This document shows, piece after piece, positions 19,658 to 37,587 of a stretch of DNA of 44,452 bases. The notes under the pieces were generated by a model, which was not told the origin of the DNA, searched no databases, and was given only the letters and a program-made list of their open reading frames with translations. Source of the DNA: an uncultured Hungatella sp. (GTDB lineage: Bacteria > Bacillota > Clostridia > Lachnospirales > Lachnospiraceae). The position numbers and the translations under genes were made by a program. Location of the stretch: positions 1 to 44,452 of the forward strand of contig CAMTAF010000016.1 of assembly GCA_947066955.1 (NCBI GenBank). The letters are read 5' to 3'. The first letter of the stretch is position 1. The number at the start of each line of letters is the position of its first letter.

Positions 19658-19659
19658 GG

Positions 19660-20328: not shown

Positions 20329-20341
20329 ATCGTCTCTCCTG

Positions 20342-21232
20342 TTATTTTGCCATAGAAAATCCCACAGACTCAAACACTGCCGCGCAGTCGGCTGTAGTGA
20401 GATAATCTAAAAATGCCTGGGCCTCCTCCTGATGTTTTGAGATATTTAACACAGCCGCCGGGTAGATCACCTGGCCGCACTGGTCCTCATCCGCCTGGTC
20501 CACCACGGTCAGACCGGCGGAAAACGCGTCCGTGGCATAGATGATCCCGCAGTCCACGGATGCCTCCTTCACCTGGGTGGTCACCTCCTTCACGTTGGAG
20601 CCGTAGGTGATCTTGGCGTCACGCTCCAGCTGCTCCAAAATGCCAAGGCTCTCCAGAATCTCTATGGAATACGCCCCCACCGGGACATCATCGTTGCCTA
20701 AGCAGATCAGATTCAGCTTGTCTGTCCCCAAATCCTCATAGGAGGAAATGCCTGCCGGGTTGTCCTGGGGAACAGCCAGGACAACCTTGTTCTCCACCAG
20801 GTTCAATCTGCTTCCCTCCAGTACAAAATCCAGCCCCTCCGTGTTTACAGACGGGTCCGCCGCCATATCCAGCTGATTCATCTGTTTCTGCGCCGCGGAG
20901 ATAAAGATATCGCAGTCAGCCCCTTCCTGGATCTGGGTCTTTAAGGTTCCTGAGGAATCAAAGGTGTAGACGATCTCCACCTCCGGCCTGACTTCCTTGT
21001 ACATCTTGGCGATCTCAGTGAGTGTCTCTGTCATGGAAGCAGCCGCGAACACAATCAGCTCCACGCTCTCTTTCGGGCTCTCGCTCTCTGTCTCTGTTGT
21101 CTCTGCCTCTGTGCCCTCCTGGGCCGTGCCTGCTGCCTGGGTGTGGGATGTCTTCTGGCTGCCGCCGCATCCTGACAAGGCTCCCACTGCCATCATCGCT
21201 GCCATCATCGCTGCTGCAAATCTTTTTCTCAT
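20342..21232 (-). CDS. modA: Molybdate-binding lipoprotein
   Basis: 296 residues. A signal peptide ends in LSGC with Cys22 lipidated, then a Thr/Glu/Ser-rich linker (about 25-58). The ModA fold starts ELIVFAAASMTETLTEIAKM and shows FDSSGTLKTQI and GADCDIFISAAQKQMNQL, the oxyanion-binding loops of ModA. A later segment (VDCGIIYATDA) is also typical. The ATG at 21232 follows AAGGAGGACATT; the extra 28 codons upstream are not needed. It captures molybdate or tungstate outside the membrane. A palindrome at 21278-21293 lies in its promoter region. Confidence 0.93.
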   Translation of the reverse strand: MRKRFAAAMMAAMMAVGALSGCGGSQKTSHTQAAGTAQEGTEAETTETESESPKESVELIVFAAASMTETLTEIAKMYKEVRPEVEIVYTFDSSGTLKTQIQEGADCDIFISAAQKQMNQLDMAADPSVNTEGLDFVLEGSRLNLVENKVVLAVPQDNPAGISSYEDLGTDKLNLICLGNDDVPVGAYSIEILESLGILEQLERDAKITYGSNVKEVTTQVKEASVDCGIIYATDAFSAGLTVVDQADEDQCGQVIYPAAVLNISKHQEEAQAFLDYLTTADCAAVFESVGFSMAK

Positions 21233-21277
21233 AATGTCCTCCTTCTGTCCCTTCCGGGGATGGGTATTTATACCGAG

Positions 21278-21293
21278 CGTTTTTACAAAAACG
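21278..21293. promoter_or_regulatory. Operator-like dyad upstream of modA
   Basis: CGTTTTTACAAAAACG is a 16-bp dyad with 7-bp arms, about 46 bp upstream of the modA start. It could bind a molybdate-responsive regulator such as the ModE-like domain encoded at 27064-28002. It is not the E. coli ModE box, so this is inference. Confidence 0.4.
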
Positions 21294-21319
21294 TACGGTT
21301 GTATAATCTTATGCAATTT

Positions 21320-21363
21320 CCAGGCAGGGGAGAGCCGGCTTTTGAACCCTCTCCCCTGCCTGG
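21320..21363 (-). terminator. Strong stem-loop between the moa/mog genes and modABC
   Basis: CCAGGCAGGGGAGAG (21320-21334) and CTCTCCCCTGCCTGG (21349-21363) form a perfect 15-bp stem with a 14-base loop. No clear U-tract follows on the minus strand, so it may be a partial terminator or an mRNA processing/stability element that separates expression of cofactor genes from modABC. Confidence 0.6.
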
Positions 21364-21380
21364 CAGATCATGTTTTGATC

Positions 21381-22325
21381 TTATGTTCTCGCGCACTCCG
21401 AGGCTGTTCCCCGAAGAATCTCAAGGCCGTGGGCCAGGGACCCAAGGATATAATCCAGGCTTTCCTTTACCGCCTTCGGGCTTCCCGGCAGGTTGACGAT
21501 CAAAGTCTTTCCCCGGATCACCGACACTCCTCTGCCAAGCATGGCCCGGCTGGTAACCTCCATGGACTTGTAACGGATGTATTCCGCGATCCCCGGCGCA
21601 TTCCGGTCCGCCACCTCCATGGTTGCCTCCGGAGTCTGGTCCCTCATAGAAAATCCGGTTCCCCCGCTGGTGACCACCAGATCCACCTGCCGCCCGTCTG
21701 CCAGACGTTTCAGCTGAGTCTTTAAAAGGGCCGGCTCATCGGGAAGGATCATGGTTTCCACCACCTCATAGCCTGCCTCCTCCAGCATCCTCACCGCCGC
21801 GGGCCCGCTCTCGTCCTCCCGCTCTCCCTTGGCTCCCTTGTCGCTGAGGGTCACCACTGCTGCCGTAAAAGGCCTCTTGGGATCAGGGGGCACCACGGTG
21901 AGCACATCGCCCTCAGAGATGTCCCCTTCTTTTAAAACCTTGGCAAACACTCCCTCGTGAGGCATAATGCACTCTCCCATCCGCTTGAAAATAGCGCAGT
22001 GGCTGTGGCATTCTTTTCCGATCTGGGTCATCTCAAGCTCCGCTGTCCCCACCAGAAAACGGCTTCCCACAGGAAGGCTTTTAAAGTCAATCCCTTCCAC
22101 CACCAGATTCTCGCCGAACGCTCCGTGGTCCACATCGGCTCCTCTCTCGTTAAATTCTTTCACCTTATCGTAAGAAAGAAGGCTGATCTGGCGGTGCCAC
22201 CTGCCTGCGTGGGCGTCGCCCTCAATGCCGTAATTTGGCCGCACATGGACACGGCCCACCCCGTGTTTCTCTGTGCCCTTTTTCTCACTGACACAGACTG
22301 CTTTTACTGTTCCTGTCAACATCAT
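21381..22325 (-). CDS. MOSC domain fused to MogA/MoaB-type molybdopterin adenylyltransferase
   Basis: 314 residues. Residues 1-145 form a MOSC domain: GIEGDAHAGRWHRQISLLS, then GAFGENLVVEGID, with a conserved Cys in GKECHSHC (Cys106). Residues 150-314 form a MogA/MoaB domain: TAAVVTLSDKGAKGE, then VVTSGGTGFSMRDQTPEAT (218-236) and NLPGSPKAV. MogA adenylates molybdopterin before metal insertion; MOSC domains handle sulfur or bind molybdenum cofactor. The ATG at 22325 overlaps the moaC stop codon as ATGA; the longer frame of 62 extra codons is moaC in another frame and is rejected. Confidence 0.9.
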   Translation of the reverse strand: MMLTGTVKAVCVSEKKGTEKHGVGRVHVRPNYGIEGDAHAGRWHRQISLLSYDKVKEFNERGADVDHGAFGENLVVEGIDFKSLPVGSRFLVGTAELEMTQIGKECHSHCAIFKRMGECIMPHEGVFAKVLKEGDISEGDVLTVVPPDPKRPFTAAVVTLSDKGAKGEREDESGPAAVRMLEEAGYEVVETMILPDEPALLKTQLKRLADGRQVDLVVTSGGTGFSMRDQTPEATMEVADRNAPGIAEYIRYKSMEVTSRAMLGRGVSVIRGKTLIVNLPGSPKAVKESLDYILGSLAHGLEILRGTASECART

Positions 22326-22807
22326 GTATCCTTCCTGGGATTTATGTAGATCCCGCTCTTTCCCCCTGTCTTTTTCTCCAGATAAATCTGCCCCATCTCC
22401 ATGGACTTGTCCACTGCCTTGCACATATCGTAGATTGTCAGCAGCGCCACGGTAACTCCTGTGAGAGCTTCCATCTCCACACCGGTTTTTCCTGTGGTGC
22501 AGGCCGTGCACACGGCCTGGATCTCATGGGTCTCCTCCTTCAGTTCAAACTCCACGGCCAGCTTTGTCAGGTTGAGGATATGGCACAGGGGAATAAGCTC
22601 TGAGGTTTTCTTCGCGCCCATAATCCCCGCCACCCGGGCCACGGAAAGCACATCCCCCTTTTTCATGGCTCCCCGGACCACCATGTCAAAACACTGGGGA
22701 CTTAAAAAAATGCTTCCCCTGGCCACTGCCTCCCGCTTCGTGTCCTCCTTCTCCCCCACATCTACCATCCAGGCGTTGCCCTGTGTGTCAAAATGCGTAA
22801 ATTCCAT
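22322..22807 (-). CDS. moaC: Cyclic pyranopterin monophosphate synthase MoaC
   Basis: 161 residues, typical size. It converts the MoaA product to cyclic pyranopterin monophosphate. MVDVGEKEDTKREAVARG opens the fold, and GAKKTSELIPLCH followed by KTGVEMEALTGVTVALLTIY are signature segments. The usual CHPL motif reads CHIL here, a small departure. The start lies 2 bp after moaA and the end overlaps the MOSC-MogA start by four bases, so translation is coupled. Confidence 0.95.
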   Translation of the reverse strand: MEFTHFDTQGNAWMVDVGEKEDTKREAVARGSIFLSPQCFDMVVRGAMKKGDVLSVARVAGIMGAKKTSELIPLCHILNLTKLAVEFELKEETHEIQAVCTACTTGKTGVEMEALTGVTVALLTIYDMCKAVDKSMEMGQIYLEKKTGGKSGIYINPRKDT

Positions 22808-22808
22808 C

Positions 22809-23831
22809 TCATCCTCCGATCCTGATCATGTTCCCGCTCTCTGTCATCTGCTCCGGATTCTCAAAGCAGTGAGCCGCGGGCTTCCCCCACACAGCCTGTC
22901 TCATGGCCTCGAGAAGACGGGATTTTCTCTCTTCCCGGCCGGCGCTGCCTCTCAGGATTTTCCTCAGGTCAGCTCCGTCCTCATAGCACAGGCAGCTTTT
23001 TAGATACCCCTGGGAGGTCAGACGCACCCGGTTACAGCCGGCGCAGAATTTTCCGTGGAGAGCGCTGATGAGACCGATGCTCCCCTGAAATCCCGGGATC
23101 CGGTAATACACAGCCGGACCGTTTCCGTGAACCCTGTGATCCTTCTCCATACCCGGATAGATTTCCTTGAGCCGGGCCAAAAGCCTCTCATGGTCCACAG
23201 ACTCATACTGCCTCCCGTAGCCGATGGGCATCACCTCGATAAAGCGCACGTCCACCGGATATTTTACAGCCAGCTCCAGAAGCTCCTCCCAGCCGGGGCC
23301 TTCATAACCGCAGCCAAGCTTTTGGGCCATGTCTTTTAAATCCAGGGAAACCGCATTGATCTTCACCGGGATCTGCCTGTCACGGCCGGCTTCCACGGCC
23401 TTCTCCAGGGCTCTCATAACGGATTCCAGCTCTCCTCCCCCTGTCAATGCCTTATACAGCCCTGGATCCAGGGTGTCCAGGCTGATATTGATGCCGTCGA
23501 TCCCCGCATCCAGAAGCTCTTCCAGGTGCCTTTCCAGCAAAATGCCGTTGGTGGTGATGGTGACCCTGCGGATCCCCTCCGTCTCCTTCAGCATCCGGAT
23601 GAAATCGCAGCAGCCCTGCCTCACCAGAGGCTCTCCCCCGGTCACCTTGATCTTATGGATCCCCAGGGCCGCCCCGCAGGCCGCGATCTCGGCGCACTCT
23701 TCCAGAGTCAGGATCTCTGCCATGGGCACGCACTCTACACCGTCCGGCATGCAGTAACGGCACCGCAGATTGCACCGGTCGGTGATGGATATCCTCATAT
23801 AATCGATTTCCCGTCCCAAATGATCTTTCAA
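22809..23831 (-). CDS. moaA: GTP 3',8-cyclase MoaA (radical SAM)
   Basis: 340 residues. The N-terminal cluster is C20-x3-C24-x2-C27 (DRCNLRCRYC), which binds SAM, and the C-terminal cluster is C263-x2-C266-x13-C280 (FCAGCNRVRLT), which binds GTP. TGGEPLVR and the C-terminal Gly-Gly are also present. It catalyses the first step of molybdenum cofactor synthesis. The start is a TTG at 23831: it gives the family opening KDHLGREIDYMRISITDRC and is preceded by GGAGG inside the end of the xdhC gene. Residues 168-186 look slightly longer than usual between the two halves. Confidence 0.95.
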   Translation of the reverse strand: MKDHLGREIDYMRISITDRCNLRCRYCMPDGVECVPMAEILTLEECAEIAACGAALGIHKIKVTGGEPLVRQGCCDFIRMLKETEGIRRVTITTNGILLERHLEELLDAGIDGINISLDTLDPGLYKALTGGGELESVMRALEKAVEAGRDRQIPVKINAVSLDLKDMAQKLGCGYEGPGWEELLELAVKYPVDVRFIEVMPIGYGRQYESVDHERLLARLKEIYPGMEKDHRVHGNGPAVYYRIPGFQGSIGLISALHGKFCAGCNRVRLTSQGYLKSCLCYEDGADLRKILRGSAGREERKSRLLEAMRQAVWGKPAAHCFENPEQMTESGNMIRIGG

Positions 23832-23833
23832 AA

Positions 23834-24898
23834 TTACAGAACCTCCAACAGCACATCCACCACCCCGCCGCAGACCATGCCCTCATCCTCCGCGTCGGCT
23901 CCGGTCATATCCACATGGCAGAGTTTTATCTCCTGACTCTCAATGTCGGGATCCTGGCTGCTGCGGATCATGTGCAGCGCCTCGCGGATCACGGCTCCCT
24001 CCATGCAGCCGCCTCCGATAGTCCCCACGCATCTGCCCTCAGGGAGCACCAGCATCTTTGTCCCCACATCCCTGGGCGCGGAACCTCTGCGGGTCACGAT
24101 GGTGGCCATCACACGCCGCTGCCCTTCCATGGCCGGATCCAGGATCTGGCGCAGCATATCCTTGGAATAGCCCCATGTGCGTCGCTTTTTGTTCTTCACC
24201 TCTATGATCTGGGCCATGATTGCCACGCCGATCTCCTCCGGCGTCTCCGCGCCGATGTCCAGGCCGATGGGACTGTAGAGCTCAGCCAAAACCTCCGGAT
24301 CCCCTCCTTTTTCCAGGACGCTGTCCTTTACGGTGGCTACCCGGCGGCGGCTTCCAATCATGCCGATGTAGGCATGGGGTTTCTTTATGATCCGCTCCAG
24401 GCATGTCTGGTCGTGGCGGTGCCCCCTTGTGACAATGACAAAATAGGTGTTGGCGTTACCCGGAATCCTGTCCAGCCCCGCCTCAAAGGACTCGCAGAGA
24501 ACCTCCGTGGCCCCTGCCCTCCTGGCATGATCCGCGAACTGGGGCCTGTCCTCCAGCACGGTCACCCTGCACCCCAGCATCAGGCCTATGCGGATCACCG
24601 GCATGGACACATGGCCTCCCCCGCAGATCACAAGCTCCATCTCCTGGCCCAGCCGGTCGCAGAATACCCGAACCCCATTGATCTCTGCCAGGCCTTTGCT
24701 CCCGCTCTCTCCCCCGGGCAGCGCTTTAGCCAATTCCCCGGCATTTTTTGAAAAAAAGCCTCCTTCTTCCGACTCCCACACAAGGCAGTTATCTGAAAAC
24801 AATGCCCTCTGTCCCAATAGAGGCCCGTCAAGTATTACGGCCGCCATATTCTTTTTGTCCGGATCGCAATCCGAAACCGCTCTGTAAAAATCCAACAT
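23834..24898 (-). CDS. XdhC/CoxI family molybdoenzyme maturation protein, permuted domain order
   Basis: 354 residues. Family members bind molybdenum cofactor and help sulfurate and insert it into xanthine-dehydrogenase-type enzymes. A Rossmann domain (about 88-232) has ELVICGGGHVSMP and IGMIGSRRR. The XdhC/CoxI domain (about 240-354) with GSAPRDVGTKM, GTIGGGCMEG and GMVCGGVVDVL lies after it, although it normally comes first. Residues 1-87 resemble the second half of a degenerate XdhC/CoxI domain. It lies between the MoeA-like and moaA genes, with gaps of 6 and 2 bp. Confidence 0.88.
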   Translation of the reverse strand: MLDFYRAVSDCDPDKKNMAAVILDGPLLGQRALFSDNCLVWESEEGGFFSKNAGELAKALPGGESGSKGLAEINGVRVFCDRLGQEMELVICGGGHVSMPVIRIGLMLGCRVTVLEDRPQFADHARRAGATEVLCESFEAGLDRIPGNANTYFVIVTRGHRHDQTCLERIIKKPHAYIGMIGSRRRVATVKDSVLEKGGDPEVLAELYSPIGLDIGAETPEEIGVAIMAQIIEVKNKKRRTWGYSKDMLRQILDPAMEGQRRVMATIVTRRGSAPRDVGTKMLVLPEGRCVGTIGGGCMEGAVIREALHMIRSSQDPDIESQEIKLCHVDMTGADAEDEGMVCGGVVDVLLEVL

Positions 24899-24904
24899 TT
24901 CTCG

Positions 24905-25963
24905 TCATACTCCTTTTCCGAATCCGCAGTTGGGGAAGGTGCACACCGGACAGTTCAGGCACAGCCCGCCCTGTCCAAGAGCCGCCAGCTCCTCTGAAAA
25001 TACCTGGTCGTCTGCCATAACTCTGGGCAGCACCAGGTCAAAGATGGTGCGCCTGGCGTACATGACACACCCCGGCAGTCCCATAATGGCCACTGTCCTC
25101 TCACGCCCCTCATCTTTCACCTCATAATAGGCCAGAAGGAACATGGCTCCCGGCAGAACCGGGGCTCCGTAGGTCACGATCCTGGCCCCTGTGTTTTTGA
25201 TGGCCAGGGGAGTCTTGTCGTCAGGGTCCACGCTCATACCCCCTGTGCAAACTACCACATCCGCCCCTTTCCCGATCATGTCCAGGATGGAGGCTGTTAC
25301 TTTTTTGTCATCATCGTTCCATGTCACATGGTCGATGACCTCTGTGTCGAATTCCTCCAGCTTCTGTCGGATCACAGGGGTGAAGGTGTCCTGGATCCGC
25401 CCGTAGAACACCTCATTTCCCGTGGTCACGATGCCCACTTTTTTGTGGGTAAACGGCTTAAGCTGCAAAATAGGCTTTCCGCCTGTGGCCTCCATGGCGG
25501 CCTTTCTGGCATCTTTCAGCTTGTCCTCCCGGATCACCAGGGGGATAATCCTTGTCCCTGCTATCTTGTCCCCCTTTCGGACGGCAAAATTCCCGTGGCG
25601 GCAGGCGATCATCATCTCCCCGAAACCGTTCACCGCTTTTAAGCCTTTGTTATCCACTTTCAAAAGCCCGTCCCGCTCCGCGGTAAGTTCGATCTTGCCC
25701 TCCTTTACCTCCGAGCGGCCCATATAGTCTCCCCGGCACATGGCGCAGAGGATCTCGGCGGCGTCATTTTCATGGAGGATCCCCTCCTCCTGCTCCCACA
25801 CATAGAGCTGATCTTTTCCCACGCTCAGCAGCACCGGGATGTCCTCTTTTGTCACAATATGGCCTTTTCTGAACACCGCGTCTTTTGTGACTCCCTTGAT
25901 AATCTGGGTAATGTCATGGCACAGCACAGCGCCTTCCGCGTCTACCGTCCGGATCAATTTCAT
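24905..25963 (-). CDS. MoeA-like molybdopterin-binding protein with C-terminal Cys4 motif
   Basis: 352 residues. The core (about 165-310) is a molybdopterin-binding domain: KKVGIVTTGNEVFYG, ADVVVCTGGMSVDPDD and IMGLPGCVMY. The N-terminal part (1-160) has beta-rich MoeA-like segments. MoeA inserts metal into adenylated molybdopterin, a likely role here since no other moeA is seen. The C-terminus ends in a tight cysteine motif, C335-x2-C338-x2-C341-x4-C346 (LCLNCPVCTFPNC), not part of MoeA; it could hold an iron-sulfur cluster or zinc. It lies 4 bp after the phosphatase/HD gene. Confidence 0.85.
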   Translation of the reverse strand: MKLIRTVDAEGAVLCHDITQIIKGVTKDAVFRKGHIVTKEDIPVLLSVGKDQLYVWEQEEGILHENDAAEILCAMCRGDYMGRSEVKEGKIELTAERDGLLKVDNKGLKAVNGFGEMMIACRHGNFAVRKGDKIAGTRIIPLVIREDKLKDARKAAMEATGGKPILQLKPFTHKKVGIVTTGNEVFYGRIQDTFTPVIRQKLEEFDTEVIDHVTWNDDDKKVTASILDMIGKGADVVVCTGGMSVDPDDKTPLAIKNTGARIVTYGAPVLPGAMFLLAYYEVKDEGRERTVAIMGLPGCVMYARRTIFDLVLPRVMADDQVFSEELAALGQGGLCLNCPVCTFPNCGFGKGV

Positions 25964-25967
25964 CTTA

Positions 25968-27062
25968 TTATCCTCCGTCTATCTCTTTTTGCAGCAATCT
26001 CTCAATATTTTTTGCCTCTGTGTAGCGCCGTCTGTGGGCCTCCAGGGCCTCCTCCCTGTTCTCTGCCTCCATGCATCGTTTTCTGCTTTCTTCAAACCGA
26101 CGCTCCAGAGTCACCGGCTGATCCCCGCTGACCTCCTTGTCCGCCAGGTATACCACAGCGGACTCCAGCCACAGGAAAGGAAGATGGTCCCCGGATTCTA
26201 AGGAGCCCGGGCACACTAAGTCGTGATGATGCCGGATCACCTCAGCCACCCTGGGATATCCCTCCCGCAGGAGGATGGCCGCTCCTTTTGCAGGATGGTT
26301 CTCCTGGGTTCGGGCCACGTCGTGAAGCAGGGCCCCGCTGAGGATGACCGGCAGATTCACCTTTTTCCCTGCTTTTGCAAGCTTTTCTCCTATGGCCTGG
26401 GCCTGACGGCAGACAGCCTGGCAGTGCCTTCTCACAGGTTCGGGTGTTTGGTAATGGTCCCAGATCCGCCTGCATTCCCGGTCATCGGGCGCCTCGCCGG
26501 GCATCACCCCCGTCTCTGCCGCCTCCATCTGCCCGTCCTCTCCCACCAGGATCCTGTTAAACCCTCCGTAGGGCTGAGGCAGACTGCGGCTGACCTCAAG
26601 GGGCATTCCCGCCATATCCGCCAGAAGGCAGCTGTTGATGCCTGCGTGGGCCACACAGATCACGTCTCCCTGGGTCCGGGCCAGAATCCGCCCCAAAGCC
26701 TCTTTGATCCTGGCAAGGCCTTCCTCCCGGCTCTCCCCGGTATCTGGCCAGGATTCCAGGGTCTTTTTCAGCCGATCCATGGGAATATTCTCCCACTCTC
26801 CCATGTTCAGCTCTTTCAGCCCTTCCTCCACACACACCGGTCTTCCCTCTCCTGCCAGAATCCGGGCCGTCTCCACGGCCCTCGCCAGGGGGCTGGCAAA
26901 TACCTCTGTCCCCTGTCCTGTCACATGCTGGAAATATCTTCCCAGCTCTCTCGCCTGCTCCCGCCCTCTCTCGTCCAGAGGGAGATCCGTCCAGCCGATG
27001 CACCGGCGGATCCCTCCGGGGAAATCCACATGTCCGTGGCGGACCAGATACAGATTCCTCAT
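25968..27062 (-). CDS. Histidine-phosphatase domain fused to HD domain
   Basis: 364 residues. Residues 1-190 form a histidine phosphatase (phosphoglycerate-mutase-like) domain: LVRHGHVDF with phospho-acceptor His9, SPLARAVETA, and the second His in ICVAHAGINS (His139). Residues 205-330 form an HD domain: LLHDVAR with His247-Asp248, and VIRHHHDLV (His278-280). HD domains of this kind hydrolyse nucleotide or phosphate esters. The substrate is unknown; being inside a molybdenum cofactor operon suggests a nucleotide or pterin phosphate. It is 1 bp after the nucleotidyltransferase-ModE gene. Confidence 0.85.
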   Translation of the reverse strand: MRNLYLVRHGHVDFPGGIRRCIGWTDLPLDERGREQARELGRYFQHVTGQGTEVFASPLARAVETARILAGEGRPVCVEEGLKELNMGEWENIPMDRLKKTLESWPDTGESREEGLARIKEALGRILARTQGDVICVAHAGINSCLLADMAGMPLEVSRSLPQPYGGFNRILVGEDGQMEAAETGVMPGEAPDDRECRRIWDHYQTPEPVRRHCQAVCRQAQAIGEKLAKAGKKVNLPVILSGALLHDVARTQENHPAKGAAILLREGYPRVAEVIRHHHDLVCPGSLESGDHLPFLWLESAVVYLADKEVSGDQPVTLERRFEESRKRCMEAENREEALEAHRRRYTEAKNIERLLQKEIDGG

Positions 27063-27063
27063 A

Positions 27064-28002
27064 TCAAAATCCTTTCCCCATATATTTCTGGTAGGCCTGA
27101 TCCGTAAAATCCTGAACCTCTGCCACCATGCTCTCGTAGGCCTCTATTAGTTTTTTCCCTTTTTCCGTCAGCGCGGAACCGCCGCCGCCGCTGCCGCCGG
27201 TCCATCTCTGGACCACGGGAAATCCCAGCTGCTGCTCCAGCTGCTTTATCATCTTTCTCCCCTTGCTGTAGGAGACGCCCATGTGGAGGCAGGCCTCCTG
27301 GAGAGAGCCGGTCTGCTTAATCCATCCCAGAAGCTGCTGAACCCCGGGGCCGTAGAAAGGTTCGCTGGCAGTGAGACGCACCTGAATCTGGGGGCGGATG
27401 GGATACCCCTGGCCTCTCTGATAATTCCAGTCCAGCAGCTCCTGATACTGCTCCCTTGTGTCCAGATCCCGGTAGATTCCCTCGTCGTCCACCTCCACGT
27501 TGGTGATGGCGATCCCGGAATGCTCAATGGCGCCCCGCAGCCCTCCCGGCCCGTCATAGCCGCACAGCCCTTCTGCCACATCGCTCCACAGCATAATGGG
27601 ATGCCCCGGTTCCCCCCGGCACACGGTCCGGATGATGGGGGCGTCGATCATCAGCTGCTGGCGTATGGTATCCGGCATAATGGCAGGCAGGTCGATGGGA
27701 AGGATCATCAGACGTTCACAGTCCCCGCTGATGGCCCGGATGCCGATCTGAACCGAATCGAACATCTGGGTCTCGCGGAAACGTTCATTTTTTACAAACC
27801 GAACGCCCATAGAAGAAAGGTGCTGCTGCAGCTCATCCCCTCGGTATCCGGTCACCACCACCACCGGGTCGATCCCCATATCCTTCAGCATACTTACCAT
27901 GTGGCGGGAAATCGTAGAGTTTCCAAATGGGAGCATGGGTTTAAAAGCCTCCATGCGGGAGGACAGCCCGGCCGCCACCAGCACTGCGCCTGTTGACTTC
28001 AT
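27064..28002 (-). CDS. MocA/MobA-like nucleotidyltransferase fused to ModE-type DNA-binding domain
   Basis: 312 residues. Residues 1-190: an NTP-transferase fold with GAVLVAAGLSSRMEAFKP (4-21), TGYRGDELQ and ILPIDLPAI. Enzymes of this type attach CMP or GMP to molybdopterin; CMP (MocA) would fit xanthine-dehydrogenase-type enzymes. Residues 200-312: a winged helix like the ModE N-terminus, with LLGWIKQTGSLQEACLHMG, SYSKGRKMIKQLEQQ and the Gly-rich wing WTGGSGGGGSALT. ModE uses this fold to repress mod genes. The ATG at 28002 is chosen because the promoter at 28037-28065 would start the transcript near 28030, ruling out upstream starts. First gene of the molybdenum operon. Confidence 0.87.
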   Translation of the reverse strand: MKSTGAVLVAAGLSSRMEAFKPMLPFGNSTISRHMVSMLKDMGIDPVVVVTGYRGDELQQHLSSMGVRFVKNERFRETQMFDSVQIGIRAISGDCERLMILPIDLPAIMPDTIRQQLMIDAPIIRTVCRGEPGHPIMLWSDVAEGLCGYDGPGGLRGAIEHSGIAITNVEVDDEGIYRDLDTREQYQELLDWNYQRGQGYPIRPQIQVRLTASEPFYGPGVQQLLGWIKQTGSLQEACLHMGVSYSKGRKMIKQLEQQLGFPVVQRWTGGSGGGGSALTEKGKKLIEAYESMVAEVQDFTDQAYQKYMGKGF

Positions 28003-28036
28003 TCTGTGTTTCTTTCCCCTTTCTCTGTTTGTCATA

Positions 28037-28065
28037 ATTATACTATAGACAGTGAAATAAAACAA
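28037..28065 (-). promoter_or_regulatory. Sigma-A promoter of the molybdenum cofactor operon
   Basis: On the minus strand: TTGTTT (28060-28065), a 17-bp spacer, then a perfect TATAAT (28037-28042). The predicted transcript starts near 28030, leaving a leader of about 28 nt before the ATG at 28002. Confidence 0.75.
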
Positions 28066-29649: not shown

Positions 29650-30360
29650 CTATTGCAGCATCCTCTCCTGATGCCGTCTCAGCCTCTCCACATCACGGAT
29701 GCAGTAAAATCCGTTGATCTGCTCGATCAGGGACATCTCCTTCAGCTCCTTGATCGCCCGCACCGCTGTCACCCTGTTGATGCCCAGCAGATTGGATAAA
29801 AGCTGCTGGCTGATCTTTTCCCGAATCAGGATCTTTCCGTCATAGGGAACCCCGTAGCGGTCAGCGAACATCAGAAGAAGATCGCAGATCTTCCACCCCG
29901 CGTTGTGGAAATTGGCGTGGCGGATCTGCTCCATGGAGGACAGAAATTTCATGGCCAATGACTGCATGATATCCATGGAGACTTCGGGATCCGCTCTGAT
30001 CGTGTTCAGCAATGTCTCTTTGTCAATGCACACCAGCTCCGACGGCTGCACAGTCTTAAAACAGATGGGGGACGCATAGTCGAACAGAAGGTTGGCCTCC
30101 AGAAGAAGGGAATTCTGCTCGTTAAAATTATAGATTCTCTCTTCCCCATTGAGAGTGTATTCATAGGCCACCACCCGGCCGTATTTGACAATATAGCAGT
30201 ATCTCGGCTTTTCTCCTGCCTGAATCAGAAGGTGATTTCTGGGAAACTCCTTTTTTTCGCCCAGCTTTTCCAGGCGGGCAATCCCTCTGGGAAGGTGCAG
30301 CAGACGGGAAACAAAATCCGTGTGCGGAACCGGTATCTTTTTATTATCTGGCTGTTTCAT
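29650..30360 (-). CDS. Crp/Fnr-family transcriptional regulator
   Basis: 236 residues. A cyclic-nucleotide-binding-type beta roll (about 25-145) has NHLLIQAGEKPRYCYIVKYG and RVVAYEYTLNGEERIYNF. The dimer helix follows, then a Crp-type helix-turn-helix (about 170-225) with ISQQLLSNLLGINRVTAVRAI. There is no N-terminal cysteine cluster like that of Fnr and no clear cAMP-binding signature, so the effector is unknown. It is divergent from the methyltransferase gene at 30595 and close to the hydroxylase locus, which makes both candidate targets. Confidence 0.9.
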   Translation of the reverse strand: MKQPDNKKIPVPHTDFVSRLLHLPRGIARLEKLGEKKEFPRNHLLIQAGEKPRYCYIVKYGRVVAYEYTLNGEERIYNFNEQNSLLLEANLLFDYASPICFKTVQPSELVCIDKETLLNTIRADPEVSMDIMQSLAMKFLSSMEQIRHANFHNAGWKICDLLLMFADRYGVPYDGKILIREKISQQLLSNLLGINRVTAVRAIKELKEMSLIEQINGFYCIRDVERLRRHQERMLQ

Positions 30361-31645: not shown

Positions 31646-32101
31646 TTATGAATTTGTATACACAACTTCCACAATATGCTCATTGGAATGGGAATCTTTC
31701 CACCCATCCTTTGCCTTCATCTCCTGGATGGCCTGATCCACGTAAGACCCTTCTGTACACCGGATCTGAGGAAAATACTGCTTGCTCTCCACCACATGGG
31801 TGAAGCCGAAGTTGCTCTCGATCTTCTTCACCAGCGCATCCTCCCCCAGCTCTTCCACGCTCTCCGGCACACGGATATACTCCAGGTTCAAGCATCCGTT
31901 GACTGTATAATTGCCGATCTTTTTCACTCCGTCGGGGAGATACAGGCCAGTGAGTTTCTTGTTCTGATAAAATGCCTGATTGGCGATCTCCGTGGCGCCC
32001 TCCGGAACCACGATCTCCCCCTGGCAGTTCTTTCCGTCCTTTACCACACCGTTTTCCATGACCAGACCATTTTCCAGTGTTCCATTTAACAGATCGCTCA
32101 T
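31646..32101 (-). CDS. Leucine-rich-repeat (BspA/LRR_5-type) protein
   Basis: 151 residues. The middle holds two or three LRR_5 units: IVVPEGATEIANQAFYQNKK, then LTGLYLPDGVKKIGNYTVNG, then LEYIRVPESVEELGEDALV. There is no signal peptide or wall anchor, so it is probably cytoplasmic. The C-terminal 50 residues (about 100-151) are not repetitive. The ATG at 32101 overlaps the stop of the flavoprotein gene as ATGA, so it is translated together with the hydroxylase flavoprotein. A role as an assembly or scaffold partner is only inference. Confidence 0.75.
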   Translation of the reverse strand: MSDLLNGTLENGLVMENGVVKDGKNCQGEIVVPEGATEIANQAFYQNKKLTGLYLPDGVKKIGNYTVNGCLNLEYIRVPESVEELGEDALVKKIESNFGFTHVVESKQYFPQIRCTEGSYVDQAIQEMKAKDGWKDSHSNEHIVEVVYTNS

Positions 32102-34494
32102 CTTCCTGCCTCCATAACTCTGTTGTAGATCGCATCTTTGCACATAAAGATCTTATACTCGTTTCCGCTCATGGCAAAGGCGTGTTTCATGGCAATCTCC
32201 CCGGCCTGAGCGGCTGTCTCCGGAGTGATCTCCTTCCCCCTCAGGTAGGCTTCCACCTCCGGCAGCTCGTAAGGCACCGGGGCCACCCCGCCCAGCACCA
32301 GGCGGCAGCTCTTGACCACGGCGTCCTCCGCTTCAAAGGCGCTGGCCAGGGACACGATGGCAAAGTCGATGGCATTGCGGACGCGGCGCTTGTCGTAATG
32401 GGTCTCGCCGGAAGCCCTGGGGATCCGGATCTCTGTGACCAGCTCTCCTCTGTGGAGGATATCCTGCACGGTCAGCTTGGAGGTGAACAGTTCTTTGGCA
32501 GAAAGCGTTCTCTCTGTGGTGACGATCCTGGCCCCCTCCATCACCAGCACTGGGGTGATGTCTGAGGGATTCACCGCGTAGCAGGCGCAGTGCAGACAGC
32601 GGCAGGCTTCCTGCTTTGCCTGTTCCTGATCCAGAGAACTCCGGTCCTCTCCTGTAAGGCTCCTCTCAGATGCCGGAAGCTCCCCCGGCCTCACTGCCTT
32701 GGTCCTCTCCACTCCTTCCACATTGAAGGTGGTAAATCTCTCTTTTGCCAATTCCTCTGCCCCCTCGGCGCTCTGCTGCTCCCCGCCGTTTTCAGGGCGC
32801 AGATCCAGGTTCATGGTCCTGGCCGCGTTCCTCCCGGCAGCGATGGCCCGGATAGCCAGATCCGGTCCCGTCACCGCGTCGCCGCCTGCATAGTACCCCT
32901 GGGCCCTGGTCCTTCCGGACTGGGCATCCGCGTCGATGAGCCCTCTCGATGTCTTTATCTGGGAGGACAGGTGATCTCCCAAAAAGCTGAGTTCCACCTT
33001 CTGTCCCGTAGCCAGGATGATAAAGTCGGAGGCCAGCTCCATGGTGTCTTCCTCGTGGTATTTGGGCGCGAACCGTCCGTTTTCATCTCTCACAGACAGG
33101 CACCGCTTTGCCAGAAGGCCCTTCACCTTTCCTTCTGATTCCAGAACCTTCCCAAGGCCCCAGCCATTGTACAGCTCCACGCCCTCTTCCAGGGCCATCT
33201 GAATCTCCTCCTCGGAGGCAGGCATCTCCCCGCGCTGCTCTAAGCACACCAGCTTCACACTCTTCGCGCCTAGCCGGCAGGCTGTGAGGGCCACATCCAT
33301 AGCCACGTTTCCGCCGCCGCACACCAGCACATTTTCCCCCATGGCCTTTTTTAAGTAGGTGTTCACTTCCTCCAGGAAATTTAATCCAAACTCTGTCAGG
33401 TTCTCGCCTTCCAGCCCCAGCACCGGCTGAGACCACGCTCCGGTTCCGAAATACACGGCGTCATTGTCAGCCTTGATCTGCTCCACCGTCACGTCTCTTC
33501 CCACCGTGGTGTTCATGACAAAGCGGATTCCCATAAGGGTCTCCAAAGCCTGACAGAATTCGTCCACAATGGTTTTGGGAAGGCGGTAGTGGGGGATTCC
33601 GTAGCGCAGCACGCCTCCCGGCTTCTCGTGGGAATCATAGACCGTGACCTGGTGGCCCGCGCTTCTCAGATAAAATGCCGCCGTCAAGCCTCCCGGGCCC
33701 GCTCCGATGATGGCGCATTTCTTTCCGGTCTCCTTGTGGGGAGCCTTATAGTACTCCTCTTTATGCTTTAAAATATAGTCCCCAAGGGTCCTCTCCACTG
33801 CCGGGATGTTCACGCTCTCCCCATATACGCTCTGGTTGCAGTGCTGGGTACACCCGTGGGGGCAGACGCGGCTGGTCATCATGGGCATTGGGTTGTATTT
33901 AAAGAAAATATCCGCTGCCCCGGCCCAGTCATTTTCCCGGATCTTGGCCATATAGCCGGGAATGTCCGTCCCCGCCGGACAGGCGTGCTGGCAGGAGGAA
34001 CCGCCTGTGCACATGCCTCCGAAAATGGAGTGGTACCGGTTTTCCCCCGCAATGGCATAGCAGGTGTCCCCGCCCTTTCTCTTGCACTCCAGACGGCCTC
34101 CTATGGAGTCCGGATACCGGTAATACCAGCAGCGCACATCCTGGCACACATTGCCGCCTATGGTGGCGGTGCTGCGGATCAGCGGGGAGGCTACGGAACA
34201 GGCGGCCTCTGACAGAGCCTGGCAGTAGTCCTTTACCAGCGGGCTCTCCGCGATCTGTTTTAATGTGGTCCCGGCCCCGATGGCCAGCATCCCGTCTTTT
34301 TCCTCTATGTACCTGCTCCCGGCAATCCCTTTTAAGCTCACTACGGCCTCAGGGTAATCAGGGAGAAGGCGGTCTTTCAAAGTCCCCAGAAGGTCCGTGC
34401 CGCCGGCAATGGGCTCTACCGCGCCGTTTCCTTCCCGCACCACGCGGCTGGCTTCCTCATAGCTCCGGACCTTGATATGATCAAATTTTTTCAT
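32098..34494 (-). CDS. Molybdenum hydroxylase FAD subunit with nested GltD/YgfK-like NAD(P)H oxidoreductase
   Basis: 798 residues against about 300 for a normal FAD subunit. Residues 1-160 are the first part of a xanthine-dehydrogenase FAD_binding_5 domain: PIAGGTDLLGTLKD, STATIGGNVCQDVRCWYYRY, ENRYHSIFGG. Residues 162-245 are an Fe-S domain like the N-terminus of GltD/dihydropyrimidine dehydrogenase (SCQHACPAGTDIPGYM, RVCPHGCTQHCNQ). Residues 258-560 have two nucleotide-binding folds (IIGAGPGGL, VCGGGNVAMD) and GYYAGGDAVTGPDLAIRAI. The FAD subunit resumes at CYAVNPSDITPVLVMEGA (638) and ends with a CO-dehydrogenase-flavoprotein C-terminal domain. No frame break is seen, so it is one protein. 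It follows the Mo subunit by one base and overlaps the LRR gene. Confidence 0.9.
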   Translation of the reverse strand: MKKFDHIKVRSYEEASRVVREGNGAVEPIAGGTDLLGTLKDRLLPDYPEAVVSLKGIAGSRYIEEKDGMLAIGAGTTLKQIAESPLVKDYCQALSEAACSVASPLIRSTATIGGNVCQDVRCWYYRYPDSIGGRLECKRKGGDTCYAIAGENRYHSIFGGMCTGGSSCQHACPAGTDIPGYMAKIRENDWAGAADIFFKYNPMPMMTSRVCPHGCTQHCNQSVYGESVNIPAVERTLGDYILKHKEEYYKAPHKETGKKCAIIGAGPGGLTAAFYLRSAGHQVTVYDSHEKPGGVLRYGIPHYRLPKTIVDEFCQALETLMGIRFVMNTTVGRDVTVEQIKADNDAVYFGTGAWSQPVLGLEGENLTEFGLNFLEEVNTYLKKAMGENVLVCGGGNVAMDVALTACRLGAKSVKLVCLEQRGEMPASEEEIQMALEEGVELYNGWGLGKVLESEGKVKGLLAKRCLSVRDENGRFAPKYHEEDTMELASDFIILATGQKVELSFLGDHLSSQIKTSRGLIDADAQSGRTRAQGYYAGGDAVTGPDLAIRAIAAGRNAARTMNLDLRPENGGEQQSAEGAEELAKERFTTFNVEGVERTKAVRPGELPASERSLTGEDRSSLDQEQAKQEACRCLHCACYAVNPSDITPVLVMEGARIVTTERTLSAKELFTSKLTVQDILHRGELVTEIRIPRASGETHYDKRRVRNAIDFAIVSLASAFEAEDAVVKSCRLVLGGVAPVPYELPEVEAYLRGKEITPETAAQAGEIAMKHAFAMSGNEYKIFMCKDAIYNRVMEAGR

Positions 34495-34495
34495 T

Positions 34496-36808
34496 TTACC
34501 TTCCTCCTATCTTGCCCATGGCCCGCAGCACAACGGTGGGGGAACAGGGATATTCTGTGATCTCATGGCCAATGGCGTTGCTGACCGCCATCAGGATAGC
34601 CGCCGGAGCCGGGGATGGGGTGATCTCGCCGAATCCCAGGGCGTGGAATGCCTCGGAGTCGAACTCACTCTCCAGAAGCACGGTGTCAAATGGCGGGAAT
34701 TCGTTGAAGGTTCTCCACTTATAGTCGATCATGTTGCCTGTCATGAACCGCCCCAGCTTTTTGTCCATGACCATTTCCTCGAAAAGACCTGTGTCGCCTC
34801 CCGCGGAGCCAAAGGATCCCTCTGCCTGCATGCGGATGTTGATAGGATCAATGATCTGTCCAACATCAGACCCCTCCAGGGCATAGATCAGCCTGGCCTC
34901 ACCGGTCATCAAGTTGACCTCCACGTCCGCCAGATACAGGGCAAAGTTGGGCTTGTCAAAATTCTGCTTATATTTGGCAGAGCCGGTGATGGTCATCTCC
35001 GGAGTGCCGCACACGGCGATCCAGGGAAGCCGCACTTCAGGGCGGCTCTTGGCGAACACCAGGAAATTTTCGGTGTCCAGATCCTCCACATTGGCATTGA
35101 GCTTTATGGCCGCCATCTCCAGAAGCTGGCGCCGGGCGTCATTGGCCGCGCGGACCGCTGTGGTTCCCATGGTAATGGTTCCCCTGGAACCGATCATCCC
35201 GGCGTCGTAGCCGGTGGCGTGGGTGTCCGGATCCACCACCTGCACCCCGTCTAAGGGCACCTTCATCACCTCGGCCACCATCTTCTGCACCGCGAACCTC
35301 TGGGCGCCCCCGGTCTCTCCCACGCACAGCTCCAGGGTCACGCTCCCAAAGGGGTGGAGCTTCACCATCCCCTCTGTGGGATCCTCGCCGATATCCGCGT
35401 TTCCGTGGACGCCCACTCCCACGCCCCGGGCATACCGTCCATCCTCGCTGACCCAGTAGGGCTTCTCCCAGCCTTTCCATTTATCTTTCCAGCCAAAAAC
35501 TCTGGCGCTCTCTTCAAAGGCCCTGGTGTAATCCACGGAGTGAACTTCCCACCACAGATTGTCCCGCCAGATATAGCGGTCCCCGGCCTTGACAAAATTC
35601 TTCTTAAAGACCTCCAGGGGATCCATCCCGGCCTTGCGGATCACCGTGCACACCATGGGCACCAGCACGCTCTTGCACTCCTGCCCTCCGAAACCGCGGA
35701 TAGGAGCCTGGGAGGAGTGGTTGGTGGCCACCAGCTTGGTGTCCAATGCCCAGTTCTTGCATTTTCCCAAAAATGCCTGGCACTCTCCCAGTCCCACAGC
35801 CGTCATGGCTTGGGCGTAGGTGGAGGACATGCCGGAGTCCGTGTACCACATGCCCTCCACTGCGTTGATCACCCCGTCCTCCGTCATGCCTACCCGGCCC
35901 CGGATCCGGCTTCCCTGGCGCAGCTCATAGCTTAGCAGGTGTTCCGTTCTGTCCATGATAAACTTGCAGGCTCTCCCTGTGAGCTTTGCCATGAGGATGG
36001 CCTGGAGGATCATGTGGGGGATCAGTTGCTTGGAGCCGTAGGAGCCTCCCGCGTGGCAGGCGATGACGCGGACCGCCACCCCGGGGATGGAAGCCTCTGT
36101 GTTAAATTTCTGAAGATGAGGCGCTCCTCCGTTATACCACACCGTCACGGCGCTGGGGCTGGTCCACTGGGCGATACAGCCGGGGCTCTCAGGAGGAAGG
36201 GGGTGAGCCATGTTCTCGTATTTCATGTATCCCTCGTTCACATACGCGGCCTCTTCAAAGCCCTTTTTTGTGTCCCCCACAAAGATCTGGTTAAAGGGTT
36301 CCTCGGAAAACGGGGTCACCTTGGGGATCTCATTGCCCGGATACTCTTCATAAAGCTGGGGGGCTCCCGGCTCTAAGGCCTTCTCGCAGTCCAGGACAAA
36401 GGGCAGCACCTCATACTCCACGTCAATGAGTTTCAAGGCTTCATCCGCGATCTCCACGGTCTCCGCGGCCACCAGGGCCACGCTGTCCCCCACAAAGCGG
36501 ACCTGTCGGTCCAGAACACGACGGTGGTTGGGCAGTCCGCATTTCCAGTCAGGCGCTTCCTTGTAGGAGGCGGCGCCGATCACCCCGGGGAGGGCTTTTG
36601 CCTTGCTCAAGTCAATGGATCGGATGACGGCGTTGGGATGGGGGCTTCTTAAGACCCTCACCACCAGCATCCCCGGCATCACCAGGTCGTCTAAAAATTT
36701 CTGGCGGCCGGACACCAAGTCCTCCGCGTCTGCCCTGTTTCCGTGTTTTCCGATATAGCGGTATTCGTGCTCACTCACCTTTACCGTTTTTTTCATCTCC
36801 TCATACAT
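34496..36808 (-). CDS. Xanthine-dehydrogenase-family molybdopterin-binding subunit
   Basis: 770 residues, normal length for a large subunit. An N-terminal aldehyde-oxidase/xanthine-dehydrogenase a/b hammerhead (about 25-135: LRSPHPNAVIRSIDLSKAKA, VRFVGDSVALVAAET) precedes the Mo-binding region: CHAGGSYGSK, SSQAPIRGFGGQE, GSRGTITMGTTAV and EGSFGSAGGDTG. The base glutamate of the family aligns with E728 in ALGFGEITPSP. The usual QG(Q/S)xT near the cofactor is less clear than in the paralogue at 43111. The substrate (purine, other heterocycle or aldehyde) cannot be told from sequence. GGAGG lies 8 bases before the ATG at 36808. Confidence 0.92.
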   Translation of the reverse strand: MYEEMKKTVKVSEHEYRYIGKHGNRADAEDLVSGRQKFLDDLVMPGMLVVRVLRSPHPNAVIRSIDLSKAKALPGVIGAASYKEAPDWKCGLPNHRRVLDRQVRFVGDSVALVAAETVEIADEALKLIDVEYEVLPFVLDCEKALEPGAPQLYEEYPGNEIPKVTPFSEEPFNQIFVGDTKKGFEEAAYVNEGYMKYENMAHPLPPESPGCIAQWTSPSAVTVWYNGGAPHLQKFNTEASIPGVAVRVIACHAGGSYGSKQLIPHMILQAILMAKLTGRACKFIMDRTEHLLSYELRQGSRIRGRVGMTEDGVINAVEGMWYTDSGMSSTYAQAMTAVGLGECQAFLGKCKNWALDTKLVATNHSSQAPIRGFGGQECKSVLVPMVCTVIRKAGMDPLEVFKKNFVKAGDRYIWRDNLWWEVHSVDYTRAFEESARVFGWKDKWKGWEKPYWVSEDGRYARGVGVGVHGNADIGEDPTEGMVKLHPFGSVTLELCVGETGGAQRFAVQKMVAEVMKVPLDGVQVVDPDTHATGYDAGMIGSRGTITMGTTAVRAANDARRQLLEMAAIKLNANVEDLDTENFLVFAKSRPEVRLPWIAVCGTPEMTITGSAKYKQNFDKPNFALYLADVEVNLMTGEARLIYALEGSDVGQIIDPINIRMQAEGSFGSAGGDTGLFEEMVMDKKLGRFMTGNMIDYKWRTFNEFPPFDTVLLESEFDSEAFHALGFGEITPSPAPAAILMAVSNAIGHEITEYPCSPTVVLRAMGKIGGR

Positions 36809-36811
36809 GGG

Positions 36812-37327
36812 TTACGCCTCCTTCCTCTTCATCTCGTTGATAAAGCCCATGACCGTGCGGATCACCTGATAATGGCTGATGCAGCGGCAATAGTTGCCAG
36901 ACAGGGCCTCTGTCAGCTCCTTCTCCGTGGGGTTGGGATTCTGATCCAGAAGAGCCTTTGTGCTCATGATAATTCCCGGGGTGCAGAACCCGCACTGAAA
37001 AGCGGAATTGTCCGCAAATGCCTTCTGCAGAGGGCTTAACTCCCCTGTCACCGGATCGCAGAGCCCTTCCAGCGTTGTCACCGAACTGCCGTCACAGTCC
37101 GCTGTAAGGACCATGCAGGAGGCCACCGCATCCCCATCCACGATCACCGTGCAGCATCCGCAGGCTCCGTGCTCACAGCTTCTCTTGGCAGCCGTCAGTC
37201 CCAGCCGGTCCCGGATGGTGTCCAGAAGCGTCTCTGACGGCGACACACAGCCCACCCCGTCGCCGATGACAAATTTTCTGGGCACGCCGTTGACTGTCAT
37301 GCATATCTGTTCCAGATGTTCCTTCAT
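36812..37327 (-). CDS. Molybdenum hydroxylase [2Fe-2S] subunit
   Basis: 171 residues, standard size. Plant-type cluster: C51-x4-C56-x2-C59-x11-C71 (SCEHGACGCC). Second cluster in the helical domain: FQCGFCTPGIIMS and NYCRCISHYQ. It carries electrons from the molybdenum centre to the flavin. The ATG at 37327 has GGAGG 8-9 bases upstream; the frame extends 39 codons further with no family similarity, and that part is leader. First gene of the hydroxylase operon. Confidence 0.95.
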   Translation of the reverse strand: MKEHLEQICMTVNGVPRKFVIGDGVGCVSPSETLLDTIRDRLGLTAAKRSCEHGACGCCTVIVDGDAVASCMVLTADCDGSSVTTLEGLCDPVTGELSPLQKAFADNSAFQCGFCTPGIIMSTKALLDQNPNPTEKELTEALSGNYCRCISHYQVIRTVMGFINEMKRKEA

Positions 37328-37393
37328 TTCCTGTACCTCCTCATAAAATGTGGGCGTGAGTCCCTTAAGGCCGCCTGCCCCACATACATCAAA

Positions 37394-37440
37394 GGCCAGG
37401 ACAGACGGACACCTTGCTTTTTGTCCGCACGTCACTGGCC
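37394..37440 (-). promoter_or_regulatory. Nested stem-loop in the hydroxylase operon leader
   Basis: Outer arms GGCCAG/CTGGCC (37394-37399/37435-37440) and inner arms CGGACA/TGTCCG (37406-37411/37422-37427) can form a two-tier hairpin in the untranslated leader. A third CCGG-based stem lies just upstream near 37454-37467. I could not match it to a known riboswitch class. The region 37328-37661 has no convincing gene. Confidence 0.4.
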
Positions 37441-37587
37441 GCACTACCCACCACCGGAATGTCCCGGCAGACCTTGTATTTTGTTACTGTTATTTTATCA
37501 GATTCATCGGCTTATAAAAAGTATTCTTAGCCACATACGTGGTCTAGGCTACACCTGTTATCTGGCTTCACCTGTCATCCCCGCTAC

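Follow-up and report, generated by a model that had tools for sequence, protein, structure and literature searches.

We analyzed a stretch of 44,452 nucleotides (hereafter the window) from an uncultured Hungatella sp. of the Lachnospiraceae (GenBank assembly GCA_947066955.1, contig CAMTAF010000016.1, positions 1 to 44,452 of the forward strand), which contains a gene for the FAD subunit of a molybdenum (Mo) hydroxylase with a GltD-like oxidoreductase module nested inside it. The gene is the third of a three-gene operon, the genes for the Mo and [2Fe-2S] subunits lying at 34496-37444, and encodes 798 residues in one unbroken frame (32098-34494, minus strand). Its parts and its operon partners are as follows.

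34018..34494, minus strand: host FAD subunit, N-terminal part, residues 1-159 (Pfam FAD_binding_5), with C122, C137 and C145
32584..34017, minus strand: inserted GltD-like module, residues 160-637 (junctions relative to un-nested hosts; best model PRK12771; inserts monophyletic)
33763..33999, minus strand: Fer4_20 of the insert, residues 166-244 (Pfam), with C168, C172, C211, C215, C219 and E234
32833..33720, minus strand: Pyr_redox_2 of the insert, residues 259-554 (Pfam), with FAD and NAD(P)H folds
33238..33246, minus strand: C417-L418-E419 of the insert, predicted NADH-type motif (alignment)
32581..32601, minus strand: R632-C633-L-H-C636-A-C638, the last two cluster cysteines of the insert followed by the fourth [4Fe-4S] ligand of the host (RCxxCxC in 23/23 sequences covering it)
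32101..32583, minus strand: host FAD subunit, C-terminal part, residues 638-798, with CO_deh_flav_C at 706-771 (Pfam)
34496..36808, minus strand: Mo (MoCoBD) subunit, 770 residues, same operon (Pfam, NCBIfam)
36812..37444, minus strand: [2Fe-2S] subunit, same operon, start codon probably further in (Pfam)

All four Pfam domains of the frame score above their curated cut-offs: FAD_binding_5 at residues 3-118 (101.8 bits, cut-off 27), Fer4_20 (67.1 bits, cut-off 25.8), Pyr_redox_2 (100.1 bits, cut-off 26.1) and CO_deh_flav_C (49.4 bits, cut-off 25.5). A GltD-like module is nested inside a molybdenum-hydroxylase FAD subunit, as a first-pass annotation of the DNA had recognized; the limits given there (residues ~161 to ~636, about 475 residues) were refined to 160-637, or 478 residues, by comparison with un-nested hosts. 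The top NCBIfam model for the insert, PRK12771, reaches 409.7 bits, under its cut-off of 516. The insert had been called a complete GltD/YgfK-like oxidoreductase. A GltD-like NAD(P)H/FAD/Fe-S module it is, but not a complete GltD, given that its RCxxC pair is C-terminal, an arrangement shared with StnC-like modules.

The host had likewise been described as a xanthine-dehydrogenase-type subunit. Its place in the xanthine oxidase (XO) family stands, but the plain XdhB type does not: judged by its sequence, the host is of the 4-hydroxybenzoyl-CoA reductase (HBCR)/PaoB type, and its own four-cysteine [4Fe-4S] loop holds the insert. A plain XdhB host was rejected, as the cysteines of this loop are missing from E. 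coli XdhB and YgfM. The best-scoring host-type NCBIfam model is HBCR beta, far under its cut-off (TIGR03195, 142.6 bits, cut-off 404.55); TIGR03194, likewise an HBCR model, gave 261.8 bits against a cut-off of 994.55. Solved relatives of the host include 1rm6_B, 5y6q_B and PaoB (5g5g_B). By alignment the loop consists of C122, C137, C145 and C638, the cluster itself being predicted, and the insertion point lies between ligand 3 (C145) and ligand 4 (C638). A close un-nested relative reads RC...C...C...RYHSIFGGSVEQGC-YA, where nested proteins read RC...C...C...RYHSIFGG, the insert, then RCxxCxC-YA. The four-cysteine pattern was matched by 30/38 un-nested rows (8/38 do not match). The insertion place is identical in all 18 nested proteins with both junctions, with insert lengths of 445-480 residues and one outlier of 581. 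One nested protein of 905 residues (L198:2191-4905; loci are numbered L and genomes G) has an insert about 100 residues longer, with a Gly/Ala-rich stretch ahead of RCxxCxC.

GltD-like modules carry two [4Fe-4S] clusters held by seven cysteines and one other ligand (the ligand numbers of DPD), and GltD itself carries an RCxxC pair near its N-terminus. The insert has no such N-terminal pair, its own being C-terminal (C633/C636); five of the seven module cysteines fall in Fer4_20 and the RCxxC pair at the opposite end, as in 8oh5_C and 9bov. The ligands were compared in 25 nested sequences, two of which (L043 and L254) are without the C-terminal end and one (L062) without the N-terminal start. 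C122, C137 and C145 are kept in 24/24 sequences covering them, C633, C636 and C638 in 23/23, and C168, C172, C211, C215, C219, E234 and R304 in 25/25, so that none of the 11 cluster cysteines varies in any sequence covering it. The spacing between the host loop and the insert's first cysteine is also nearly fixed (8 residues in 23 of the 25, 9 and 10 in the other two), and the nucleotide motif region G393-N396 is conserved across the aligned nested proteins. The C636-x-C638 arrangement sets ligands of two predicted clusters one residue apart in 23/23; from this spacing the two clusters would have to lie close together. The module's two ends are expected to come together at a single cluster, so that a loop could accommodate it. 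We infer cluster assembly and ligand assignment from homology with GltD, DPD and StnC-type modules. Purifying selection acts on both host and insert in the two pairs measured (nonsynonymous to synonymous ratios, host/insert, of 0.19/0.30 and 0.05/0.07); a third pair was saturated.

The first-pass annotation had suggested searching databases for the same nesting, and the same two junctions were found in other genomes. The window's own genome, a draft of 240 contigs, holds a second full-length nested copy (54% identity, contig C71). Directly after this second gene lies a 520-residue copy (L038:12367-13926) that retains the cysteine motifs of both host and insert but no longer has most of FAD_binding_5, the GxGxxG motif or the second of the nucleotide folds. 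Within the window's family, sampled over 334 genera, 7 of 397 genomes matched at E <= 1e-110, its own included; across the phylum 19 of 398 matched at E <= 1e-90, four of them, again with its own, over the whole length. Among the best 80 loci listed in a contig search, at least six were nested (L062-L067, five whole and one ending at a contig end), with titles naming Clostridia, Syntrophobacterales, Sporobacter termitidis DSM 10068, Desulfobacula and Chloroflexi, one being untitled. The isolate S. termitidis DSM 10068 has two nested copies (L065 and L189), and the Chloroflexi nesting comes from one bin only. In the phylum of a Syntrophobacterales bin (G597), which we take to be Desulfobacterota, 45/247 genomes matched an un-nested host query; nesting was found in at least five sampled genomes (L249-L253) besides G597 itself and a split gene in G684, a lower bound because nested genes were read from sampled genomes only. 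In the single genome with L254:3020-5346, the nested gene lies in two frames (499 and 256 residues), either naturally or by sequencing error. The nesting thus recurs, in scattered anaerobes, across Bacillota, Desulfobacterota-type bins and one Chloroflexi bin.

When 24 inserts were placed in a tree with 26 other modules, they formed one clade (support 100/100, all 200 bootstrap trees). The module tree splits, again with 100/100, into a half with GltD, YgfT and YgfK and a half with PreT and all inserts; YgfK and PreT, both from E. coli, are long branches. A single clade of nested hosts, on the other hand, was rejected (approximately unbiased (AU) test, p 0.0002, 16 vs 8 rows). With the inserts forming one clade and the hosts not, the insert was gained once among the sampled sequences and later lost or exchanged. 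A host tree of 58 rows (20 nested, 38 un-nested) needs four label changes in its best form and 4-5 in bootstraps; the starred branches alone force three changes there, two in another host tree and only one in the reduced AU host tree. The insert tree rejects groups taken from the host tree (p 5e-5 and 4e-8), and the insert group narrowly escapes rejection by the host tree (p 0.06). Either pure exchange or repeated loss of the cassette may account for this.

The sets behind these tests differ in composition. The 58-row tree omits the partial L043, L062 and L254, the duplicates L266-L268, the 520-residue copy, L045, L253 (junction pattern failed) and hosts under 240 residues. The long-branched L041 was outside the host AU test, as were L062, L193, XdhB and YgfM, and outside the host-tree test of the insert group; L041, L062, L253 and L254 were outside the insert-tree test of host groups, and L043 outside the tree of 24 inserts. 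Stops showing the wrong strand led to the removal of four rows from one module tree and two from another module set, and nested L269 and L278 are in no alignment or tree.

The two Sporobacter paralogues differ at 18 positions in the first 462 bases, up to the junction, and mismatches crowd from base 472. Identity is 90-100% before the junction, 52-90% in windows of the insert and 80-93% in the C-terminal host part, and the synonymous divergence is 0.27 for the host part and 0.74 for the insert. This pattern suggests that pieces were exchanged, or that the host part was converted, the breakpoint lying close to the junction; two other profiled pairs showed no identity step there. The last tens of bases before the Sporobacter genes, at the end of the Mo gene, are also near-identical, much like a conversion tract that stops close to the junction.

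The insert's nucleotide preference was approached through position 419. This is Arg (motif YRR) in GltD, YgfT, YgfK, 5jca (NfnI alpha) and 8oh5 (StnC-type), and Glu (ARE) in PreT, which is annotated as NAD(+)-dependent. The window protein reads CLE, and among the nested proteins Glu occurs in 19/25 and Arg in 6/25, the six Arg cases (L187:831 and L249-L253) all belonging to G597 or its phylum. From E419 we infer that the window protein prefers NADH; its six Arg relatives are predicted to be NADPH-type. An NADH type as a family-wide trait was rejected in view of those six. One cluster of the Syntrophobacterales bin (L187:831-8449) carries two nested genes, one with Arg (NADPH-type) and one with Glu (NADH-type).

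In our favored reading, the nested gene specifies the subunit for electron exchange in an HBCR/PaoB-like Mo enzyme of three subunits, with an NAD(P)H port built in at its [4Fe-4S] entry point; we give this a probability of about 0.6. The Mo enzyme probably exchanges electrons directly with NAD(P)H via the insert; the solved structures of its module family include NAD(P)H-linked proteins (8oh5_C, 9bov, NfnA 9n5u and NfnI 5jca). The insert FAD would oxidize (or reduce) NADH and pass electrons to two insert [4Fe-4S] clusters (C172/C211/C215/E234 and C168/C219/C633/C636), from which they would travel by way of the host cluster (C122/C137/C145/C638), the host FAD and then two [2Fe-2S] clusters to the Mo site. 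Such a path linking NAD(P)H with Fe-S, flavin and molybdenum had been proposed in the first-pass annotation, and the cysteine spacing supports it. The favored direction would be reduction of a substrate, for example an aromatic compound, by a formerly ferredoxin-type enzyme made NADH-driven. NADH drives the removal of a phenolic hydroxyl by Ucdh of Enterocloster bolteae (PMC12771579; PubMed Central articles are cited here from excerpts) and the reduction of uric acid by E. coli XdhD-YgfM (PMC12507026); because both enzymes act reductively, a reductive role is our first choice, by analogy somewhat more probable than an oxidative one.

The substrate itself was sought in the Mo subunits and neighboring genes. 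Beside nested genes the Mo subunits are of at least three divergent kinds (by bits against two references), and none of the NCBIfam Mo-subunit models reached its cut-off. Loci with Mo subunits of the window's kind carry CoA-ligase-like genes, both nested (L249, L250 and L251) and un-nested (L194, L195, L246, L248 and L257); L195 also has an acyl-CoA dehydrogenase gene, and the neighbors of L247 appear acyl-CoA-like by eye only. The window itself gave no CoA-ligase match.

We also compared nested with un-nested loci, some of the latter pointing to a different path for electrons. NuoF/NuoG neighbors were found at 7/37 un-nested and 0/22 nested loci (Fisher p 0.039; Pfam-confirmed at un-nested L186 and L188), and a Tat-like (twin-arginine) motif on the partner [2Fe-2S] subunit in 10/23 un-nested and 0/17 nested cases (Fisher p 0.002), for which the regular expression may overcount (L260 and L263 are doubtful). 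Both patterns agree with an NAD(P)H port being of use in the cytosol alone. Un-nested L194 has a 4Fe-4S protein gene upstream, and L237 combines a Mo subunit near the nested Sporobacter type (1042 bits) with an un-nested host and a Tat-like signal.

Several points weigh against the port reading. Once kinship was allowed for, neither the NuoF nor the Tat contrast held (three independent pairs, median sign-test p 1, no power), and neither therefore reaches the standing of independent support; differences within the three pairs, where any, ran in the expected direction. XdhD-YgfM (PMC12507026) and Ucdh (PMC12771579) take NADH, and YgfM has no insert, so the insert is not required for NADH use. 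YgfK, with its Arg motif, was assayed with NADH (PMC12507026), so that position 419 is not a clean test. The nested locus L041 adjoins a small ferredoxin-like frame, shows no Mo subunit within the stretch retrieved, and has a host part on a very long branch. Finally, the activity of a nested member is not reported in the excerpts of the open-licence PMC literature searched.

Among the alternatives, the one that fares best, although we consider it unlikely, keeps the same wiring in reverse: the substrate would be hydroxylated and the insert would pass electrons to NAD(P)+, making a dehydrogenase with a second NAD port. XO-family members catalyze mostly oxidative reactions (PMC12771579), and pairing with at least three divergent Mo kinds means that the direction may differ between members. 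However, the host loop is of the HBCR type, and the HBCR structure paper is titled 'inverted electron flow' (cited in PMC12771579); the recent gut XO-family NADH users, Ucdh (PMC12771579) and XdhD-YgfM (PMC12507026), are reductive.

Bifurcation, which the first-pass annotation had raised as a possibility, is judged quite improbable. The insert FAD would send part of the NAD(P)H electrons to the Mo enzyme and part to ferredoxin, in the manner of NfnB, and the Glu at the NfnB-type ligand position (E234) and R304 are indeed invariant in 25/25; L041 has a 73-residue ferredoxin-like frame beside its nested operon. But only one exit chain is visible and a second is not, GltD and YgfT carry the Glu too, and StnC, of the same fold, is reported to be non-bifurcating (PMC10482914). 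In a search of the other 21 nested loci that did not extend to NfnA-like genes, the sole extra ferredoxin-motif match was a low-complexity frame in L042, about 6 kb off. As to the layout of L041 (6338-11367), the nested gene, a [2Fe-2S] gene and the ferredoxin-like frame follow a gene for a fumarate-reductase-like flavoprotein.

Marginally less credible still is an insert that serves as a scaffold or regulatory domain without electron exchange with the Mo enzyme. It would suit the reduced 520-residue copy, in which cluster cysteines are kept and nucleotide folds lost, but it sits poorly with the conserved cluster ligands and G393-N396, the near-fixed linkers and the purifying selection on both parts (two pairs). 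An assembly or sequencing artefact joining two genes, the refutation foreseen in the first-pass annotation, has a negligible chance despite the draft state of the genome, because the 54% paralogue and independent full-length copies in many other genomes, one an isolate, exclude it.

The surroundings of the operon include the following genes.

18536..28065, minus strand: molybdenum supply cluster with ABC transporter and binding protein, MOSC/MoCF, MoaC, MoaA-like, XdhC/CoxI, MoCF and MobA-like genes (Pfam)
25968-27062: His_Phos_1/HD gene inside this cluster (Pfam)
29650..30360, minus strand: Crp/Fnr-type regulator near the operon (Pfam)

A Crp/Fnr-type regulator also lies by the G175 operon (L040:13580-14272; Pfam). 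At 27067-28065 of the window the MobA-like nucleotidyltransferase is fused to a LysR-type DNA-binding domain, and TylF-type methyltransferase genes flank the operon (30595-31449 and 37662-38549). A further Mo subunit, with HBCR alpha as its best score, reaches the contig end (43111-44445); the genome has five MoCoBD_2 places in all.

We tentatively propose a broader picture, which is somewhat less likely than not to hold in full. A redox cassette would be gained, lost or swapped whole inside a cluster-binding loop, wired in by a Cys-x-Cys between two clusters, and would turn ferredoxin- or periplasm-linked Mo enzymes into soluble NADH- or NADPH-driven ones; it would have reached several phyla and joined at least three kinds of Mo subunit. 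As the ends of the module would meet at its own cluster, a whole NAD(P)H oxidoreductase could fit between two ligands of another cluster. If true, this would be a clear natural case of a complete redox enzyme lodged in another's metal-binding loop, the sequence itself fixing the electrical contact, and a route by which anaerobes power reductive Mo chemistry, such as aromatic dehydroxylation, by NADH or NADPH rather than ferredoxin. It would also offer a natural series with and without the module for electron-transfer engineering.

Among known systems, GltD, NfnB, DPD and PreT share with the insert the combination of Fer4_20 and Pyr_redox_2 and the seven Cys plus Glu or Gln (for DPD, its known ligands); they differ in having RCxxC near the N-terminus, one Cys of which was aligned, and in being separate chains or terminal fusions. 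HBCR beta (1rm6_B) and E. coli PaoB (5g5g_B), the latter annotated as an FAD-binding Fe-S subunit, resemble the nested protein in their FAD fold, four-cysteine loop and three-subunit Mo enzyme, but are without the insert, and the window protein falls below the TIGR03195 cut-off; HBCR accepts ferredoxin (PMC12771579). YgfK with XdhD-YgfM offers a GltD-like flavoprotein encoded beside an XO-family enzyme, as here, and the first-pass annotation had taken the insert for YgfK built into the flavin subunit. We rejected this origin, since TIGR03315 gives 240 bits against a cut-off of 835.3 and E. coli YgfK lies on its long branch in the other half of the module tree; it is reported to be a separate reductase with its own substrate, yanthine, and the purified XdhD, with YgfM as putative partner, uses NADH (PMC12507026). 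Ucdh, like the enzyme encoded here, belongs to the XO family and comes from a Lachnospiraceae species; it is driven by NADH (PMC12771579), as predicted for the window protein.

Another relative of the module is 8oh5_C (1172 residues), which we take to be StnC of PMC10482914 (also 1172 residues). StnC, 9bov and NfnA (9n5u) share with the insert a GltD-like module with RCxxCGC at its C-terminal end, and in StnC, which has two [4Fe-4S] clusters and FAD, NADPH electrons pass to FAD and onward through the [4Fe-4S] clusters (PMC10482914). Its proximal cluster has three Cys as ligands and a Lys in the place of the Glu of NfnB (PMC10482914); the nested proteins carry Glu there, like NfnB. The StnC module is N-terminal, fused to a NuoG-type part and NADPH-binding (PMC10482914), whereas here it is nested in a flavoprotein and would feed an XO-family enzyme. 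In the excerpts of the open-licence PMC literature searched, including PMC10482914, PMC12507026, PMC2276186, PMC12771579 and PMC11574389, the nesting is not described, which is no proof of absence. The parts are each known; what may be new is their arrangement, a complete NAD(P)H module set in the cluster loop of a Mo flavoprotein with a shared Cys-x-Cys.

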